From: Branchiostoma floridae
Taxonomy: Eukaryota; Chordata; Leptocardii; Amphioxiformes; Branchiostomatidae
NCBI RefSeq assembly: GCF_000003815.2
Contig: NC_049986.1
Coordinates: 14,271,933 to 14,335,932, forward strand
DNA: 64,000 nucleotides
Reading direction: 5' to 3'
Shown here: positions 22,142 through 34,750 of the stretch, piece after piece
Numbering within the stretch: position 1 is the stretch's first letter
Layout: the number at the start of each line of letters is the position of its first letter
Program-made: the position numbers and the translations under genes
The notes under the pieces: model-generated
Seen by the model: the letters and a program-made list of their open reading frames with translations, nothing else
What the model was told of the DNA's origin: nothing
Databases searched by the model: none

Positions 22142-25100
22142 CTGTGAGGTAGATAACAGTCTTCAGATTCAGTCTTCAAAAAACATCATTCAGTCTAATC
22201 AAACAATGGATAGTGAGTGTGAGTGAGTGAGTGAGTGAGTGAGTGAGTGAGTGAGTGAGTGAGTGAGTGAGTGAGTGAGTGAGTGAGTGAGTGAGTGAGT
22301 GAGTGAGAGTGACTGAGTGACTGAGTGAGTCTAATTCATCAACGAGGTTTACTTGGCCAAATTCTGGCGGACAATACAGGCTCATGTCTTCTCTGCTGTC
22401 ACAGAATGACCAATGACCAAAGTGTTGGCTATGCCTTGGTAACATCATGATGGCTGTTTGGTCTTGAATAAAGAACTTAATCTTTGCTATTCAAAACATA
22501 GGATACTTTCCCAAATCAGGTACTCACCTGTAGGATAAATCGACTCAGCACCAAGCACGGCTGTTTCCTGGTATGAGGAATATTGCACTTTGTAGCCATC
22601 CTCCTGAAAACCCTTGACAGTTGCTGGATACCACAGCCCATTCCTGTACTTGGCAAGGCACTGAGATCCTTCTTCTAAAATACTGGACAAAATACAAAAT
22701 ATAGAATACAGACTGAACTAGAGTTCCACGAACACATACCTTTGCCAAATAACAAGGTTTGTTATGTAGAATGATGTCTGTAGACAAATGCGTTACTCAT
22801 TTCATTTTCTTTATAATTATATGCTTGGAGTTGGTTTATAAAATTTCAACATTGATTATGCAAATTAGATCCCAAGGTACCATTAATCGATATCAAATTG
22901 TATCAAGCATTACTTAAGCTATCAGCATACCAAAAATCATGATGATCCTTTGATCCATTCTCGACTTATTCTCTTTCAGTCTTAAATAAAATACACCCCT
23001 TACTCTCTTCCCTCTTTCTCAGTTACATATGTGACAACTTTGATGAAAGTACTATAATGAAATGCAGTGGGTTTTTGTACTTTTCCTAATTGATTAGGCA
23101 AATTAGCTGTTGATTTGCATAATTGGTATCTCATTATTTAGGTCTTCATTTACGCTACCTAAATACCAAAAAACATGATGATCCGTCAACATGTTCATAT
23201 TTTCTCATTAATAATGCAAATGAGGTCATCATTTGCATAATTGATATCTATAGATATTTCTCTCCTTCCCAGCTACAAGTTTGAAAGTCCTATCATGGAA
23301 TGCTGTGGATTTATAAATTTTCCTAATTAATTATGCAAATGAGCTGTTGATGTGCATAATTCGTATCTCATTATGTAAGTCATCACTCATTCTATCTACA
23401 TACCAAAAATCATGACGATCCGTCAACATGTTGTAGAGTTATTTCGTCCAAAGTTGAGTTTCTGCTGCAGTACCTTAGCAAGCCGCTAGGGGGTCCATTA
23501 TCAAACTTGACCTTCGTTTCCCGATCCCTACCCACCTACCAAATATCATCAGGATCCATCCCAGGCTTCTCCAGTTATGCTGTTAACACACACACAGACA
23601 CACAAACACATCCAAAACCTAACCTTAGCCATTCTGGCAAAGGTAAAATTGTCGCAGTGGTTTTAGTCTATTGTCCAGGTTTGTGCGGCAACCCCTCAGC
23701 TCCAAAACCATAACTCCACAAATGTGCATTTTAGTTGTATGAAACTGTTCAGAAGTCACCCTCAAGCTTAAAGCATCGAGAAACAAGTACCATTTCCACC
23801 ACCCTGTCACAATTGCAAGGGGGTAGGCACTACTTCTAAGTTTGCACAAAGCCCACCATACCACATATTTATCTAGAAAATTTTATATAATATTCCCTGG
23901 AGAATCCCTTCTTTACTTTTTTGTAGACAGTCAATGAAAACATATCTGGATATATATATCTTTCAACCACATTTTTAACAATGTACATTATGTACTTATT
24001 GTCTAACTGTGAATTCAGACATCCATAGAAAAAAGTAACCGATATCGTTTCAAATTTCCCTTACGCCTTGTAACCTGAATTCCTTACAGCTGTTCATCAG
24101 TTCATATTCAATTTGATGACAGAGTGATAACGCGCCTACTCACAATAGGGGATGTGTTGAAAAGTCCGAATGTTTGAAGCGTAGCCACAACTTGACTGTA
24201 CATTAAATATATGTAAGTCAATTGGGAACAATGTCCCAAGCTCTGCTCTACTACCTCATGTTCCTTGTATCTCTATGTACACCCAAAAGATTTTCCACAA
24301 AATCACCTCCGTGTAATTTCTGCTGGGCAATTGTCTTCTGAATTAGCTCTGCCCCAAATCTCACAACCATATGATATAAAAGGTAAGATACATGTTCTAC
24401 ATAGTTCAAGCTTCAAAGTTCTGACTCTTTGGAGACAGACTTGAATGCATGAAGGCTTTGAGACTGAAAATGGCTTTTAAAAGACTACTGCAAGGACAGC
24501 TCAAATTGAGACCATGTAGTGAAAAGAGAGATGTCAGTGTACCTACCTCTCAAACTCAAAGGAAGGAGAAGAATACAGACTAAGACCGTTGTTATGTACA
24601 TAAGCCCATCATTTTGGCTTGCCAAGTTGATCATATGGCCTAAGGGTCAACTAACACATTTGCAAGGTCTGACCTTTCCACCTCTGAAATATCAGGTTGC
24701 TCACAGTACTGACTGATCATAGGCCAGTCCAATTCATGGACCAGGAACCCCTCAACTGTGCTGACAGCTGCTAAGGTGGAGTGGGGTTGTACTGCTTCAG
24801 AGGTTTTCGACAAGAATGCCCCTGCTATCCCTACACTAGCCGCTAGGGGGCCCAAACTTATGTCACTAACTCCTGAGCACAACAGCTATCTAACACCCAA
24901 AACTCGTGGCCATACCATGTTCAGAAGATGGAAAAACACACCCGGAAGTTGCGCTGCAGTACCAAGGGAAGCCGCTAGGGGGCCCATTATCGAACTCCCC
25001 CTTCGTTTCCCAGACCCCTACCCACCCACCAAATACCAGCTGCATCCGTCAAAGTCTTCTCGAGTTATGCTGTCCGCAGACAAAAGTTTGCAATTAAACC

Positions 25101-28100: not shown

Positions 28101-31100
28101 GTCTGAAGTTCATATCATTTTGTCTTTGTAACAATTCATTTAGAAAGTTTTTGTGATGAAAATTAACCTAAGCGATAGTGTATTAGAGCGTAACTTTAAC
28201 GCAATTTACCTCCGTAATATTGGTGTCGTCTATTGACCTTATATGACCTCGCTTGTCGGCGGGTATGGATAGCGCCAGTTAACGAAGTTTTGTTTTGAAA
28301 ATAAATCAAAGAGGTTTTAAATCCGGCGTAGGGTGACGATACGGCAGCTGTATATGGCCGAACGCGTGCCGAAACATAGATCAGCGGTCCGCGTGGCCGT
28401 AATCGGCAGTGTTTTTGTACCTGCGGGACCGGAAATTGTGTGGCCGTGGCCGCGTTGGACAGGTGGCCGCTAAGCCTATTTCTTAATCATTACGAATCCA
28501 AGGGACCGACAAAAAGTGGCCACTATGGGCAGGTGGCCGTTATGCAAAGGTGGCCGCTAATACAGGTTTGACTGTATATTGTACAATGTACTTTGATGTG
28601 GGTATGTAGAATTCAGGGGCAGGAAACTTACTGTTTTCCAATAATTCACGGTAAGACTTAACATTTACCAGAACCAGTCAAGTCCTACAGAAACAGAGCT
28701 GAGCAAATTGACATTAATCAACTTACTAGTACGAAAATGGCTAGTTATGCAGAGGTTAGTTTAAGGGTAAAAGCCTGTTCAGTCCTTGAGAAGGTGAAGG
28801 ATTTATACAGGCTCAATACTGTCAATCTTCAGTAACTTCTACAGGCAGCAGACTCTTGGAACAGCACCAGGTACCTGTCTGTGTGCTGTGTTGCTATGGC
28901 AATGGAACATGTGGAGAACATTCCCTAGCCATGCGGTCGGCATTATGTTCCAGATTAGTCCCGCATCTCTGCACTGGAGGTGACATTTGGTAGAGCTGTT
29001 TATGAGTCAGGTTCAGTTCTAGGCTTAAGGGCTTACATGGGGAGATATTGTACTTCAATATTTAAGTCTAGAGAAGAAACAAGCACATAACCTAACTGCC
29101 AACTGGTCCTCTGGGACACATTAGGAGCAATGAGAAGACATAAAAAAATGCAGATGTACAGATGCCATCACCTTAAAATCTCCTTGAATGTGTGTTTGGC
29201 ATTATAATGTCACATCAAATAGCTGATATACACATGAAATTTGGCATTCATTTGTGTGGTATTTATATTATAAAGATAGTGAGTGAGTGTGTGTGATATA
29301 TACCTCTATACCAAGAATTGTTATCAGTTTTTTGTCTTCTGTAAAGACTGTACCATTAACTTTTCAATATAAAAATCTCCCTAGATGCTTTAATCTTCTG
29401 ATCAAAAATGAAGTCAGTTTCTTGGACACAGCTAGACACTATCTAAATGTCTGCTTTATGGTGGCATATAACCCCTGTGTATAAACATCATGATTAAAAG
29501 ATAAGTAGAACCAAATCGGAGACAGTTCAGGCACTGCTGTAAATTATTACAAGTCTGTCAATAGTTACAGGTGTCAAGTGAAAGGTGGTGACATGTTAGT
29601 GATACATTTGAGTAGTTGGTGCTACGCCAGACTGTTCATGATCAAAAGCAGGGTAGTGCCAGGTCATTCCTCCTTGCAAGCTGGTATTACAGGCCAGAAT
29701 ATACTCTGGTATTAGGGGTGGGTACCGGTACAGAAAATTCAGGTACAGGTCTGGTTCAGTCCAGAGGATCAGGTGCAGGTCCGGACCTGAACCAGGACCT
29801 GATTGTTTGTGAAGACTTGCGTCCTCAACTCTGATCCTGGTGGTAAGCCCCCAAATGTGTGAAAGCCTGCCGATATAATCTGTTCATTTCTTAATCAGTC
29901 CAAAATCAGGTCCACTGATTTTATCAGGTCTGTTGTTTTTTTCAGACGGTCCAACAAGAAAAATGGTTTTGTCGTGTACCAGTACCCCCCCCCCCCCTAC
30001 AGGGTATACTCATTTATCTATAACTATGAATATATTCTGGGGTACATCCTGGTCTGTTACATTTTGTATACTAGGAATCTCCTAAAAATAGATAGAATGT
30101 ACATCACAGAGTTACCCAATGTTGATTGCTATCATGGAAGGGAAGAAGAACTCTCATCTAGTGACCATTATGCACCGACTACCAGTACATTTTATGTAGT
30201 CGGTGAGGTTCAGATGTATTTGTTGATCACTAGAAGATGGTACAAGGTTCTTGCATATTTTCTGCCTGAAAATCTACCCTATCTTATCTAATGGGCTCGT
30301 TGATCTCCAAAGATCAGCTGATCCATAAAAATTGCAGGATGATCCATAGAACACCCAAAATATTAACATGGAAAATATCACTGACTCATCGACTGCTCGA
30401 TCAGTTACAGAACTGGAAGGACATACATCTTCATGTTTATCATTACTGACAGAGAGATGTTGAATCAAATTAGACCTAGATAAAGTGGTCCGACGCTGCA
30501 TGTGGTTTCAATGATGCAATAAGCGGATCCCATGTCTGTTCATATTGGGAGCAGTTGCATGCTAGATGTCAAGGTCACACGTATGGAATGCCTTAAAGGG
30601 AAGGCAGGGGGGAGGGATCTTCTTGAGAGATAGGAACAGTCCAATCTTATAAGTATCTCTTAGATTTGAGTTGATTGATTTAAAAAGGTTTTATATTCTT
30701 TGCTTTTCTAAGGCAAGTTTAGAAAAAGTCATAAATTTTTAAATTTGATAAGTAAACTGACTCTTATTCTAAGTGGTAAGCTTAAGCTACAATCGGTTAA
30801 TAATAGTTTCAAAGCAAGTCATATGTCACATCACATGCATTGTATCACAACTAACAACACTTAAGGACCTTGGAATGAGTTTAGTTGACTGTCAGAAACC
30901 ATATACATGTACTACGTTTGCAAGGAACAAAACTGTATACCACAAGATATGGTAACAGGTCTGAGTGTTCCTGACTATAATATGGTTTACATCTTAATCC
31001 TGCCTTCCAGCAATTGACATATTCAAGTTTACAGAGGACATCTATGGGTAAAAAAATGCCCTCTATCAGATGCTGAACAAACTGCACCAAACATCAGTCC

Positions 31101-34100
31101 TTGCTGTCATCAATTACTAAGCTCTATCAGTCTATTGATTTGCTATCTCTAATGCTTTGGTTATAAGCAATCTTGTGTTACATATACAATGTACATGTAT
31201 AACTCAGACATGGTTAATTCAATGACACACAATGTATAAATCAATAAGGAAAAGTCAGTTTTACCTGAAGTCCAGCTCTTTATACTGTCTTAGGTCTGAC
31301 ACAGCCACTAAGTTTCCATGCGAAAACCTGCATTATTAAGGAAACACAGAATTACTACAACCACTACAGTGTACAAAGCAAGGTTAAAATACATTCATCA
31401 AAATCTTAACACAGACAAAACTGCCCCTCGCAAAGTCAATTCACTTTGAAATTCATCATTACACAAGTACACAAGGGCCATCAATCATCATAAATGTATA
31501 TATTGTGAAAGGGACTGTTCTCACCTGCAGTCTTCCTCAGAAAATCTACATTTTCCTTCCAGAAAGTATGAGCATGGCAGCATGCTGTTGGTTATCGGGT
31601 TACAGAAAATCACCCTCACCTGCAGAAAATAAGGAAAGAAAGAGGAGGCACCCATTAGCTGGCTACACAGTGTCATGCAAAACATTTTAATTCAGAACAC
31701 TTTCATATTTGCTCTCCTTCCACTAGCACTGTATTGAAATTGAATGTTGTACTGGGGCAAGTACTAGTAGCAGATGGACACAATTCTGTCTGCAACTCGA
31801 AGTAGAAGGATCTGATATTGGGTCAAACCCTCAGCCTTGTGACTTACAAATAGAAATGCTACAGGCTGGGCAGGGCTTGAAATTCATTTTAGGGAATCGA
31901 TGTAGCAGAAAAAAAATAAAAATTGTTCTCACTTACTCTTGGGAAGTCCACTTCCTGAGTGGGAGGCTCTGCCCCAAGGATGATGGCATTGTGGTACTGT
32001 AGAACACCCCAGTCTGTGGTGAAGGGTGCACAGCACTTCATCCCGGTAATATCAGTATCAGGGTCATTCTCCTCTTCATCCGAGGAACTGGAATCATTTC
32101 CATGGAGCACTGCTGTCTGTGACACTGTGTCTCCTGCCCCTGAAGGCCCAGCCTCTCCTGATATTGCTTTCTGTTGATATACATAGAAAAACATTTAAGT
32201 ATGAAAACTGTGTTTGGCTTAAGTGTTGACATTGTATCTTATATCAATGGAAAGCCTGTTTGCCATTTAATGCCAAATTTCTATGCCAGTTTCTTAGTAA
32301 TCTTACATAGTATTCTACTGATTAGCTGACTGGCAGACAGTGCATAGTGCTGGCACATTTTAAGTAAGGAAAACATAGGTTTTAAGTTTGCAGTTGAAAC
32401 CTGGGTGTAGGTAGGCAGAAGGCAGAAAAAAAATTCGTGATGGTTTTCAGTTCTGACAACTGTGAGTACAAAAGCATCACAAACATTTTGCATTTTATGG
32501 TATGTCAACCATCCCTGACTCTCTCCCACATACCTGAAATACTGCAAACTCATCGTCCATAGACTCCTGTGTGTCCTGAGATGTTGAAGGATCAGTGCTG
32601 CTCCCAGCTGCTGCAGTACTGGTCTCACCTGCAGTATCTGATGGAGACTCCAGCATACCAAGCAGCTTGCTCTTCTTGATGGACAGTAAGCTCTCTAGAA
32701 GTATTAAATACAATATTGGAAAACACAAAATGGTGGCAAACAGCTTTAAAAGACACTACCATACAAGGAAACTTCAAATGCCCTGAATGTCAAGTGATCT
32801 TAGCAATGTCTGGCAGTTGAATAGAGAGTCACTTGTTTTCAATGCAACATTAGAGTCAGAAAATAACTATCAAGACAAAGTATTAGATCTATTACTTCTC
32901 CACATTCCAAATCAAATTATTCAGCACATTCTAATGATATTTCTATCAGAAGGAATAGCAGGTCTGCAATATTACCCTCTGAAAGTGTGATGAGCTCCTC
33001 TAGGTCGTGTTTCAGCTGGACCAGCTCCTCCATTCCCTCTGTACCACCAGAAAGGGCAGCCTCCACTTGAGAAAGCTGTGATGGTGATAAAGTTACACCG
33101 TACTGAACAGTTCTTCACAACAGATCGTTCATATCATGTTGCACCTTTAGCAAAAATGTGTAGCATAATCTATAAATAATCATATTCATAAAGATACATT
33201 TCTGTAACTCTGTCATCAGATGGCAGCAGAAGTTCACAGCTTTGGGATGTGTGATGGTGTGTGCATGGAGACGATTGTTTGACAGCCACTGTCGCAAGGC
33301 TACGCGGGTCACGGGTTCCTCACTGGGCTCCCAGTGACGAAAGTATATTCAAAATGGCGTCATCTCTGGACACCCAGTGACGAAGAAAGTTCGTCACTGG
33401 TTTCCCAGTGATGAATTGCTTTGTTCCAGTGATGAAAATCTCTCGGCACTGGAATTCCAGTGATGAACCTTGACTCGTCACTCAGTTTCCAGTGATGAAC
33501 TTCGCTCGTCACTCGGGACCCAGTGATGAACTCCGCTCGTCACTCGGGACCCAGTGATGAACGTCATTCGTCACTGGACACCGAGTGCGGAACCATCGAG
33601 GTCAAAGGTTCCTCACTGGGTTTTCCAGTGATCGGTGACTCTTCGGCACTGGACACCGATTGATGAAATTATTTTGGCACTGGGCTTCCAGTGACCACGT
33701 TCTAATAGCACTAAAACGTTCCAGTTCTGAGTTCGATATGCAACAAAAACACCCTAATTCACATGTCGCCATAGCCGTGTTACTGTTAGATTTGGTCCGG
33801 GAGTGTTGGGACTTGCAGAGGCGACGTTAGTATAACTTTAAGTGCTAACTTTGAAATCCCCTCAACTGAAACTATGATTCCTTTTTCATCAGTAAACTGA
33901 ATATTTGTCATCACTGGTTTACCAGCTGAGGTTTCCTCATCACTGGAAAACTAGTGACGATAAATATTCCCCACTGGTAAGCCAGTGACGACGCGACTTC
34001 ATCACTGGAAACCGAGTGATGAGAAATTTACCCGTGACCTCGGTAGTTTTGCGCCACTATCTCTTTTTGTCTCAAAATCACTGAAATTAGTTGAGCCGCA

Positions 34101-34274
34101 ATTTTATACACTCTAGATACTGGTATATGGTTTCTATGGTATATACGGGAACGATCGCCGACTGCCCCCCTCCCCATATGACGACACAAATCTTACTGAA
34201 ACTGTTCAAAAGAGAACACATCTCACCTGTTCCTTATAATTCTGGATCGACACCATCAATGTTTCTTCATCCAT
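21969..34274 (-). CDS. ZGPAT: ZGPAT (CCCH zinc finger, Tudor, G-patch protein), 3' exons missing
   Basis: Nuclear factor. Human ZGPAT binds DNA through its CCCH finger, recruits the NuRD complex to repress transcription, and is linked to splicing through its G-patch. Coding exons in transcript order: 34274-34227, 33075-32976, 32694-32534, 32170-31937, 31619-31525, 31327-31265, 22682-22528, 22141-21969. All phases agree across junctions. The start MDEETLMVSIQNYKEQ resembles the human start. A helical LSQVEAALSGG segment, an acidic Ser-rich linker, CAPFTTDWGVLQYHNA, the CCCH finger, the Tudor domain and an acidic linker ending GEWEAHTR follow. In human ZGPAT the next residues begin the G-patch. 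No G-patch or C-terminal coiled-coil exon was found down to tenascin, so the gene is incomplete here through misassembly, rearrangement or real loss. A run of 8.6 kb of repeat-rich intron precedes the Tudor exon. Confidence 0.9.
22213..22328. repeat. (GTGA)n microsatellite in ZGPAT intron
   Basis: About 29 units of GTGA, slightly interrupted at the 3' end (GAGAGTGACTGAGTGACTGAG). The minus-strand open frame through it (Ser-Leu-Thr-His repeats) is low complexity, not a gene. Confidence 0.97.
22528..22682 (-). CDS. ZGPAT: ZGPAT exon: Tudor domain
   Basis: It starts in phase 2 after tgtccag and ends in phase 1 at gtgagt. EEGSQCLAKYRNGLWYPATV and DGYKVQYSSYQETAVLG show the Tudor fold, with the aromatic residues (Y, W, Y, Y) expected at the ligand pocket. 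It aligns with the human segment beginning AGSACLAKHQDGLW. Confidence 0.93.
22850..23430. repeat. Diverged tandem repeat with ATGCAAAT boxes
   Basis: A ~210-bp unit is present about 2.5 times. Copies around 23,040-23,190 and 23,275-23,425 share TTTTCCTAATT, ATGCAAATGAGCTGTTGAT, GCATAATT and CATGACGATCCGTCAACATG-like blocks. An older copy is recognisable near 22,850-22,960. Interspersed-repeat origin is likely; class unknown. Confidence 0.6.
23463..23645 (+). repeat. Interspersed repeat with GCCGCTAGGGGG box, copy 1
   Basis: It shares with the 24.9-25.4 kb copies the blocks GCTGCAGTACC, GCCGCTAGGGGG, CCTACCCACC, AGTTATGCTG and CCTTAGCCATTCTGGCAAAG. The copy ends in a CA-rich stretch (ACACACACAGACACACAAAC). 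Confidence 0.75.
24838..25420 (+). repeat. Interspersed repeat with CTAGGGGGC boxes, two tandem units
   Basis: Two ~285-bp units (24838-25118 and 25119-25420). Each has a CTAGGGGGCCCAAACT block followed by a GCTGCAGTACC...CTAGG(G/A)GGCCCATTATCG block and an AGTTATGCTG end. The last copy ends in the same CCTTAGCCATTCTGGCAAAG as the 23.5-kb copy. Four CTCF-like cores lie here. Confidence 0.75.
25421..27663. other. ZGPAT intron, no gene recognised
   Basis: Non-coding on both strands. A GC-richer patch at 26,180-26,390 could be a regulatory element, but nothing specific was identified. Confidence 0.4.
27666..28574. mobile_element. Non-autonomous DNA transposon, TA-flanked, GGCCAC-rich ends
   Basis: 909-bp element starting CAGTCAAACCTGTCTATAG and ending ATACAGGTTTGACTG. 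The terminal inverted repeats are about 25 bp with small mismatches. TA on both sides (27664-27665, 28575-28576) fits a TA target duplication as in Tc1/mariner-type elements. Both subterminal regions carry many copies of (T/G)GGCCAC or GCGGCCAC. The interior is CpG-rich compared with its surroundings. No transposase ORF. Confidence 0.75.
28577..31264. other. ZGPAT intron, mostly featureless, with one possible inverted-end element
   Basis: No coding exon. Around 29,711-30,000, AGGGGTGGGTACCGGTAC at the left and GTACCAGTACCCCCC at the right are roughly inverted, and a perfect CAGGTCCGGACCTG palindrome lies between. This could be an old DNA transposon. A C-run of about 13 lies at 29,986-29,998. 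Confidence 0.4.
31265..31327 (-). CDS. ZGPAT: ZGPAT exon: end of zinc finger and adjoining segment
   Basis: A 63-nt exon. Its first base completes the Arg codon, then FSHGNLVAVSDLRQYKELDF. The His of FSH is the last zinc ligand. It corresponds to the human FSHGQVVSLDELRPF segment. Confidence 0.92.
31525..31619 (-). CDS. ZGPAT: ZGPAT exon: CCCH zinc finger cysteines
   Basis: VRVIFCNPITNSMLP precedes the finger. With the next exon it gives CSYFLEGKCRFSEEDCRFSH, a C-x7-C-x6-C-x3-H finger. The human finger has x5 in the middle spacer, so this one is one residue longer. Donor gtgaga. Confidence 0.92.
31937..32170 (-). CDS. ZGPAT: ZGPAT exon: acidic linker and conserved WGxLxYHNA block
   Basis: Phase 0 at both ends. 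KAISGEAGPSGAGDT, then DSSSSDEEENDPDTD, then the conserved CAPFTTDWGVLQYHNA that precedes the zinc finger in all ZGPAT proteins I recall. Confidence 0.92.
32534..32694 (-). CDS. ZGPAT: ZGPAT exon 3
   Basis: Phase 1 in, phase 0 out. ESLLSIKKSKLLGMLESP continues the N-terminal helical region (human has ASLVSVRKSSLL), then a Thr/Ser-rich linker ending DDEFAVFQ. Confidence 0.9.
32976..33075 (-). CDS. ZGPAT: ZGPAT exon 2: N-terminal helix
   Basis: LSQVEAALSGG followed by MEELVQLKHDLEELITLSE, an amphipathic coiled-coil-like stretch. Donor gtaata, phase 1. Confidence 0.88.
33320..34022. repeat. Array of ~15 short near-palindromes in ZGPAT intron 1
   Basis: Two blocks (33320-33697 and 33907-34022). 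Units fit TCRTCACTGG, a 4-6 nt centre, then CCAGTGAYGA, so each unit is itself an inverted repeat with arms of up to 10 bp. Unit starts: 33320, 33363, 33391, 33424 (half unit), 33442, 33474, 33504, 33535, 33566, 33609, 33639, 33674, 33907, 33936, 33969, 33997. Spacing is 28-43 bp within blocks. The centres differ (GGCT, ACAC, TTTC, AATT, GGAC). I do not recognise a repeat family. Confidence 0.9.
34227..34274 (-). CDS. ZGPAT: ZGPAT exon 1 with start codon
   Basis: ATG at 34274-34272 gives MDEETLMVSIQNYKEQ, ending at a gtgaga donor in phase 0. The start matches the human MDEESLESALQTYRAQ in length and pattern, which fixes the start codon. Confidence 0.93.
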
Positions 34275-34750
34275 GATACACAGATATTTTTTTCCGACCC
34301 GATCGCAATAATTCTAGACAAATATAAAACTTTGGCACATTTAAAATCTTGAGTAAGGCGCCATCTTAGAAGCGCTGCACGATGGGATTGCTTTTTTATG
34401 TGACCACTATTGCCAAATATTTGCCAGACAAAACTTCGTAGATTCTGTTCATGAAATACTAGTACAAAATTATACTACGAATGAAATAATTTCTTTTATA
34501 GAATTTCTTGCTCATATAGATATTTTTGTAAGATATTCACTGTGATATTAGATATAATATAGGGGACATTTCTGTCAGGCAATAAAGTATCTGCTTAGGA
34601 CAGCAACAATCACAAACATACCATCAAACCGGAAGTAGCTGTCTGAGTTAGTGAAGGAAAGATCCGCAGCTGTCAGTCGTAAAACTACTGTAGTCCTGTC
34701 TTCTGTTGTGCAAGAAAAATCGTCGGTTTTCACTTGAACTTGTTTTTCAG
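34275..34750. promoter_or_regulatory. Shared head-to-head promoter region of ZGPAT and C12orf57
   Basis: 476 bp between divergent start codons. GGCGCCATCTTA (34358-34369) is a YY1-type core (AAGATGGCGCC on the minus strand), in the position where YY1 sites mark starts of housekeeping genes; it would sit in or near the ZGPAT 5' UTR. TTTTTCAG directly before the C12orf57 ATG looks like a splice acceptor, so that gene may have an upstream non-coding exon. Promoter role is inferred from arrangement. Confidence 0.5.

Follow-up and report, generated by a model that had tools for sequence, protein, structure and literature searches.

A helically phased array of palindromic units in a young non-autonomous DNA transposon of Branchiostoma floridae

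The near-palindromic units arrayed in intron 1 of a ZGPAT-like gene of the amphioxus Branchiostoma floridae belong to a young non-autonomous DNA transposon and are not a feature of the intron, as is revealed by its dispersed copies, their common ends and the 9-bp duplications that adjoin them. With a probability of about 0.7, we read the phased units as dimer sites of a transposase acting in trans, whose recognition base would have been switched in concert through the array. The analysis covered a window of 64 kb (the whole stretch of DNA under study, to which positions refer) and the 513-Mb genome.

The palindromic array and the element that carries it

An earlier note on this DNA had claimed about 15 near-palindromic units in two blocks. 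A rule-based scan requiring at least 10 of 12 correct core bases confirmed this, with 15 units of the form TCRTCACTGG-n4-CCAGTGAYGA, 11 at 33317-33697 and four at 33908-34022. The centres, announced as 4-6 nt long, measure 4 nt in 14 units and 5 nt in one. Unit-to-unit steps are chiefly 31 bp, the others being 43, 52, 42, 33, 32 and 29 bp. Exact matches to CACTGG-n(2-8)-CCAGTG occur six times in the window, every one within the array, whereas 100 dinucleotide-preserving shuffles averaged 0.05 such matches and never gave more than 1. Arms are typed here by their fourth base, the switch base, which is T in 24, G in 4 and C in 2 of the 30 half-sites of the window element.

The left block consists of units 1 (33317-33340), 2 (33360-33383) and 3 (33391-33414), a lone half-site on the minus strand (CCAGTGATGA, 33426-33435), unit 4 with one G-type and one T-type arm (33443-33466), units 5 (33475-33498), 6 (33506-33529) and 7 (33537-33560), unit 8 with mixed arms (33568-33591), unit 9 with the 5-nt centre (33610-33634), and units 10 (33643-33666) and 11 (33674-33697), both with mixed arms. 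According to the unit scan and the frame list, a core with short frames only (33698-33907) separates it from the right block, which comprises the weak unit 12, whose right arm is the weak one (33908-33931), unit 13 (33937-33960), unit 14 with one C-type arm (33968-33991) and unit 15 (33999-34022).

The entire transposon spans 759 bp (33294-34052, plus strand), as delimited by genomic matches and the aligned flanks of its copies. Terminal inverted repeats (TIRs) of 23 bp stand at its fixed ends, the left one GCAAGGCTACGCGGGTCACGGGT (33294-33316, plus strand) matching the right one ACCCGTGACCTCGGTAGTTTTGC (34030-34052, minus strand) at 18 of 23 bases by eye; the right repeat was also read from the sequence, the inverted-repeat list and a right-end pattern search. 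Beyond them lie the left copy GCCACTGTC (33285-33293) and the right copy GCCACTATC (34053-34061) of a 9-bp target-site duplication, identical at eight of nine bases. Frames in this copy reach about 74 aa from stop to stop, and many dispersed copies apparently devoid of coding capacity are as expected of a MITE. Foldback elements have long inverted arms built of repeats; the window element contains 87-nt inverted arms, 71% complementary, but palindromic units would yield such arms in any orientation.

Searched with an 881-bp query, the genome yielded 115 match rows from the 40 candidates scored out of 279; full-length matches mostly run from query positions of about 48-58 to about 813-826 at 82-96% identity. 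In the aligned flanks, similarity ends at GC...GC and the adjoining 9 bp are duplicated. The duplication is perfect in 26 of 37 two-ended copies, which lie at different places and include the window copy; it matches at seven or more of nine bases in 32 and at fewer in five, and three further loci yielded one end only. In end-pattern searches allowing up to two mismatches, the right end of the window family gave 63 matches genome-wide and the left-type end 150, at least 56 of which, among the 100 listed, belong to the window family by eye. The family therefore has some 60 dispersed copies, and the 31 that were aligned are 91-99% identical to their consensus (window copy, 97.2%). The earlier note had taken the array for a free-standing one of unknown kind and had opposed to this the interior of a MITE. 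The array is indeed such an interior, making up most of a MITE-like 759-bp transposon present at about 60 genomic places.

Satellite DNA, which forms long head-to-tail arrays at few loci, was ruled out, the 15 units being irregularly stepped, bounded by TIRs and target-site duplications, and dispersed. A scan of the window with 4227 Rfam families at gathering score returned no match. Among the perfect duplications, a mild insertion-site preference was seen, with A or T at position 4 in 24 of 26 and T at position 6 in 18 of 26. Two copies on C323, at 267850 and 311387, lie about 43.5 kb apart and have a common right-end variant, perhaps marking a duplicated segment and not two insertions. At C11:21754737-21754813, the left and right ends of the family stand within 77 bp, a copy shrunk to both tips.

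The location in intron 1 near the gene start, also claimed in the earlier note, fits the sequence: the gene lies on the minus strand, its start codon, first coding stretch and splice donor falling at about 34226-34275, and coding sequence resumes within 32917-33114. The first coding exon (MDEETLMVSIQNYKEQ, 34226-34275, minus strand) was read by eye, and the gene is a putative ZGPAT, named after the human protein. Pfam searches of four frames gave CCCH zinc-finger matches in one, all below threshold, and nothing in the other three. Elsewhere in the host gene region, window positions 28380-28571 resemble positions 19-336 of locus L045 on another chromosome, with similar conceptual translations, and probably represent a further dispersed repeat. 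A (GTGA)n simple repeat of 28.5 copies occupies 22219-22330.

Helical phasing and two versions of the arm

The left-block steps are, in order, 43, 31, 52, 32, 31, 31, 31, 42, 33 and 31 bp, which correspond to 4.1, 2.95, 4.95, 3.05 helical turns and so on. In a scan of periods from 9 to 12.5, the unit starts of this block were most coherent at 10.5 bp (R 0.95). Only 0.24% of nulls in which the steps of about 31 bp were fixed and the remaining ones shifted by at most 5 bp matched or beat this coherence. The left end of a second, related family behaves in the same way (R 0.91, 0.14% of nulls as good), although homology between the two families means that this is no independent confirmation. The right blocks alone showed no significant phasing, with 54% and 18% of nulls as good. 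Two weak units, at consensus offset 412 and at offset 220 of the relative's right end, were omitted from the test.

The second family emerged from the left-end search, which also found the ends GCAAGTATACCGAAGTCACGGG and GCAAAACTACCGAAGTCACGGG, paired at distances of 1.1-4.4 kb among the matches listed; one of its copies was read at both ends. The duplication flanking this copy, ATGTTATAT and ATGTTATCG, matches at seven of nine bases, and its right end recurs at no fewer than 39 further places at 77-98% identity, some of them matching part of the query (40 of 269 candidates scored). The first eight units of the second family stand at offsets identical to those of the window-family consensus (24, 67, 98, 150, 182, 213, 244 and 275). 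Comparison of these matched units revealed a change from T to G, or the reverse, on both arms of nearly every one, most neighbouring arm positions being unchanged: across 16 half-sites the fourth base is T in 14 for the window family and G in all 16 for the second. The two families accordingly agree at this base in 2 of 16 half-sites and at position 3 in 5, compared with 14-16 at positions 5-8 and 10, and 13, 14 and 11 at positions 1, 2 and 9; their linkers agree at 57 of 83 bases. The switch is incomplete in the window-family consensus, where 6 of 32 half-sites are G-type and 2 C-type. The right end of the second family is also less uniform, its switch base being G in 10, T in 2 and C in 2 of 14.

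A genome-wide search with patterns of equal breadth found 1513 G-type and 267 T-type strict units and no C-type or A-type unit, whereas reversed-pattern controls gave 0, 1, 0 and 0 for G, T, C and A. Because the two arms must carry an identical base to fit the pattern, mixed units fall outside the count, and single C-type arms do exist. By eye, 49 of the first 50 T-type places are in or beside window-family copies; the remaining one, at C2:533515, lies away from the listed copies. Of the first 50 G-type places, three fall in one second-family copy and the remainder in other clusters (by eye). Clusters outside both families include those at C1:3937374, 8100475, 12482818 and 16636046, several of them with 31- and 52-bp steps, which reveals that further G-type families exist.

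Arm conservation and the role of the units

Non-CpG divergence from the consensus across the 31 copies was lowest in arms (1.4%) and highest in centres (6.1%), with TIRs (2.2%), linkers (3.0%) and core (3.9%) in between, so that the conserved arms and variable centres claimed in the earlier note hold between genomic copies too. In the 18 copies with neither gain nor loss of units (13 were dropped for length), variants shared by at least two copies are rarest in the arms, at 5 of 258 non-CpG sites (0.019 per site), compared with 16 of 192 (0.083) in the core, 9 of 125 (0.072) in linkers, 3 of 37 (0.081) in TIRs and 10 of 59 (0.169) in centres. Singletons per site amount to 0.167 in arms, 0.135 in TIRs, 0.232 in linkers, 0.245 in the core and 0.288 in centres. 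Arm conservation is thus stronger among variants that passed through transposition, the singleton/shared contrast between arms and core being borderline (p = 0.053 for the 18 copies, 0.39 for all 31). Singletons, too, are scarcer in arms, and the look of selection could therefore arise from homogenisation among units. Copy lengths point the same way: 18 of the 31 copies measure 747-767 bp, and six of 728-733, two of 789-793 and one of 822 bp fit one or two 31-bp steps, so homogenisation probably acts as well. Four copies, of 710, 722, 773 and 783 bp, do not fit such steps.

These data bear on an alternative that we consider unlikely, though the most serious of the competitors: the transposon would be real and the units a functionless by-product of tandem duplication and gene conversion, in the manner of minisatellite growth. 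It would account for the nine copies that lie about one or two 31-bp steps off the common length class, for linker text common to several neighbouring units and for the scarcity of singletons in arms, which conversion between units would produce, and it is compatible with the existence of the 77-bp copy. Duplication explains the 31-bp steps, however, and not those of 43, 52, 42 and 33 bp that keep the left block in 10.5-bp phase. It also leaves unexplained the two arm classes, with no unit carrying A or C on both arms, and a change in 14 of 16 matched half-sites, on both arms, amid mostly constant neighbouring arm positions.

Action of the units as RNA or DNA hairpins (cruciforms), for instance in intron-RNA processing or structure recognition, appears very improbable. 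The folding check suggested with the RNA-hairpin idea of the earlier note did return a strong fold, gene-strand RNA from 33310 to 34030 reaching -312.8 kcal/mol while 20 shuffles averaged -210.1 (sd 10.45; z = -9.8), but any palindromic array would fold in this way. Likeness is lower between the two arms of one unit than between arms taken from different units (7.8 versus 8.13 of 10 bases; 99.75% of 2000 shuffles at least as good), and left and right arms have habits of their own, such as a C at position 9 mainly in left arms. Arm changes are therefore uncompensated and pairing within the unit is not what is preserved, which disfavors the hairpin; the 10.5-bp phasing, moreover, is a property of the double helix. 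Least credible of all is a host regulatory element, a set of dimeric transcription-factor sites under selection on ZGPAT. While the first-intron position near the start and the palindromic sites would suit it, the same array at some 60 places shows that it is not peculiar to the ZGPAT intron. The window copy, 2.8% from the consensus, falls within the 1.4-8.6% range of the other aligned copies, nothing was seen tying the array to ZGPAT, and the inserted copy is probably neutral for its host gene.

A dimeric DNA-binding factor, one of the possibilities raised in the earlier note, is thus judged the best reading of the units, and we favor a transposase in this role. On this view, a short non-autonomous transposon inserted into the first intron of the ZGPAT-like gene, duplicating 9 bp of its target. 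Each unit would be a two-fold site for a transposase dimer supplied in trans by another element, and dimers may load side by side on one face of the helix, by analogy with Galileo and Muta1. The phased row of sites would then help the enzyme to load cooperatively and the ends to pair. The T/G arm base would be the recognition base. It would have been altered concertedly along the whole array, with T probably replacing G, when the window family split from its G-type relatives, and the spread of the new type would be aided as units are gained and lost, mostly 31 bp at a time. The 77-bp two-tip copy, if it moved in that form, speaks against a need for the units.

The broader proposition, to which we give somewhat less than an even chance, is that amphioxus has a whole class of transposons with helically phased palindromic transposase sites, in rows that make up their ends, and that the recognition base was rewritten in concert, probably from G to T, on the two arms of almost all units, giving two specificity groups and no unit with A or C on both arms. 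If true, the genome would preserve the traces of a transposase that altered its recognition code and diverged from its kin. Subterminal repeats are common in transposons and their role is rarely tested; what is unusual here is that palindromic sites form a phased row and exist in two versions at matching positions. A single genome offers 1780 strict units of a single site, 1513 of one version and 267 of the other; in two families they occupy corresponding positions, and at the two left ends examined they stand in helical phase. It thereby becomes testable whether the array confers specificity on a transposase, whether phase has a role and how a multi-site code could be switched without loss of mobility.

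Affinities and the search for a transposase

Duplications of 9 bp are found in non-autonomous Branchiostoma DNA elements in Repbase, which would belong to the same class; the window family, or relatives of G type, could already figure there. Merlin makes a target-site duplication compatible with 9 bp, and Galileo one of 7 bp, in contrast to the 9 bp of the amphioxus element. A search of titles and abstract openings in the open-licence literature found no description of comparable palindromic subterminal arrays in amphioxus, and Repbase may list the family. The 9-bp duplication fits both Mutator-like elements and Rehavkus, falling within the 8-11 bp range reported for MULEs in the available part of PMC6446971. 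As described in the same portion, Rehavkus resembles the amphioxus element in its 9-bp duplication, its TIR of 26-400 bp and a minisatellite before the 3' TIR, and differs in its occurrence in arthropods and annelids, its PHD-finger transposase and a minisatellite not called palindromic there.

The element resembles the Mutator-like Muta1 in its 9-bp duplication and subterminal repeats, and may belong to the same superfamily. In the accessible text of PMC5225508, Muta1 and other Aedes aegypti MULEs make 8-9 bp duplications and have numerous non-autonomous derivatives that differ in how many subterminal repeats they carry, and Muta1, classed as a type-2 foldback element, bears rows of 12-bp repeats near its ends (nine copies, 3-4 bp spacers). 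Those repeats are tandem and lie in 145-bp TIRs, whereas the amphioxus units are palindromes in 31-, 43- and 52-bp steps next to imperfect 23-bp TIRs. Further differences are the unequal unit numbers at the two ends and the fact that no MULE transposase was found in the copies; long TIRs, typical though not universal in MULEs, are also absent. For Galileo, of the P superfamily, the consulted extract of PMC3688188 reports a transposase THAP DNA-binding domain that binds sites repeated inside long TIRs; three sites were found, two in long direct repeats, and palindromic units are not described in that extract.

Neither the copies nor the samples that were examined yielded a transposase. The longest end pair, 4416 bp among 100 of 150 matches listed, is a relative on C7, of which the two ends (641 and 501 bases) and the middle (901 bases) were read. 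Seven frames of the 901 interior bases contained no recognised domain, the single Pfam match being GspL_C (E = 0.025), below the cut-off and taken as chance. Merlin transposase (PF12762, IS1595-type) has three genome places, none near listed copies by eye. The MULE domain PF10551 has 27, none inside listed copies by eye and the nearest about 10 kb from one. These 27 places score over the Pfam cut-off, and most are in open frames; in the available part of PMC6446971, the authors could not confirm MULE transposases in B. floridae.

Five copies with long interiors (L030, L042, L043, L045 and L050) were considered as autonomous elements and rejected, their extra 1.1-2.2 kb being inserts. Four of the five inserts have inverted ends of their own, the frames listed for L042, L043, L045 and L050 are short, and the L030 insert is 99% identical to DNA adjoining another copy. 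At L045 3934-6718, a copy of the element is nested in another copy, and its duplication CCCAGTGAG is itself a unit-like sequence.
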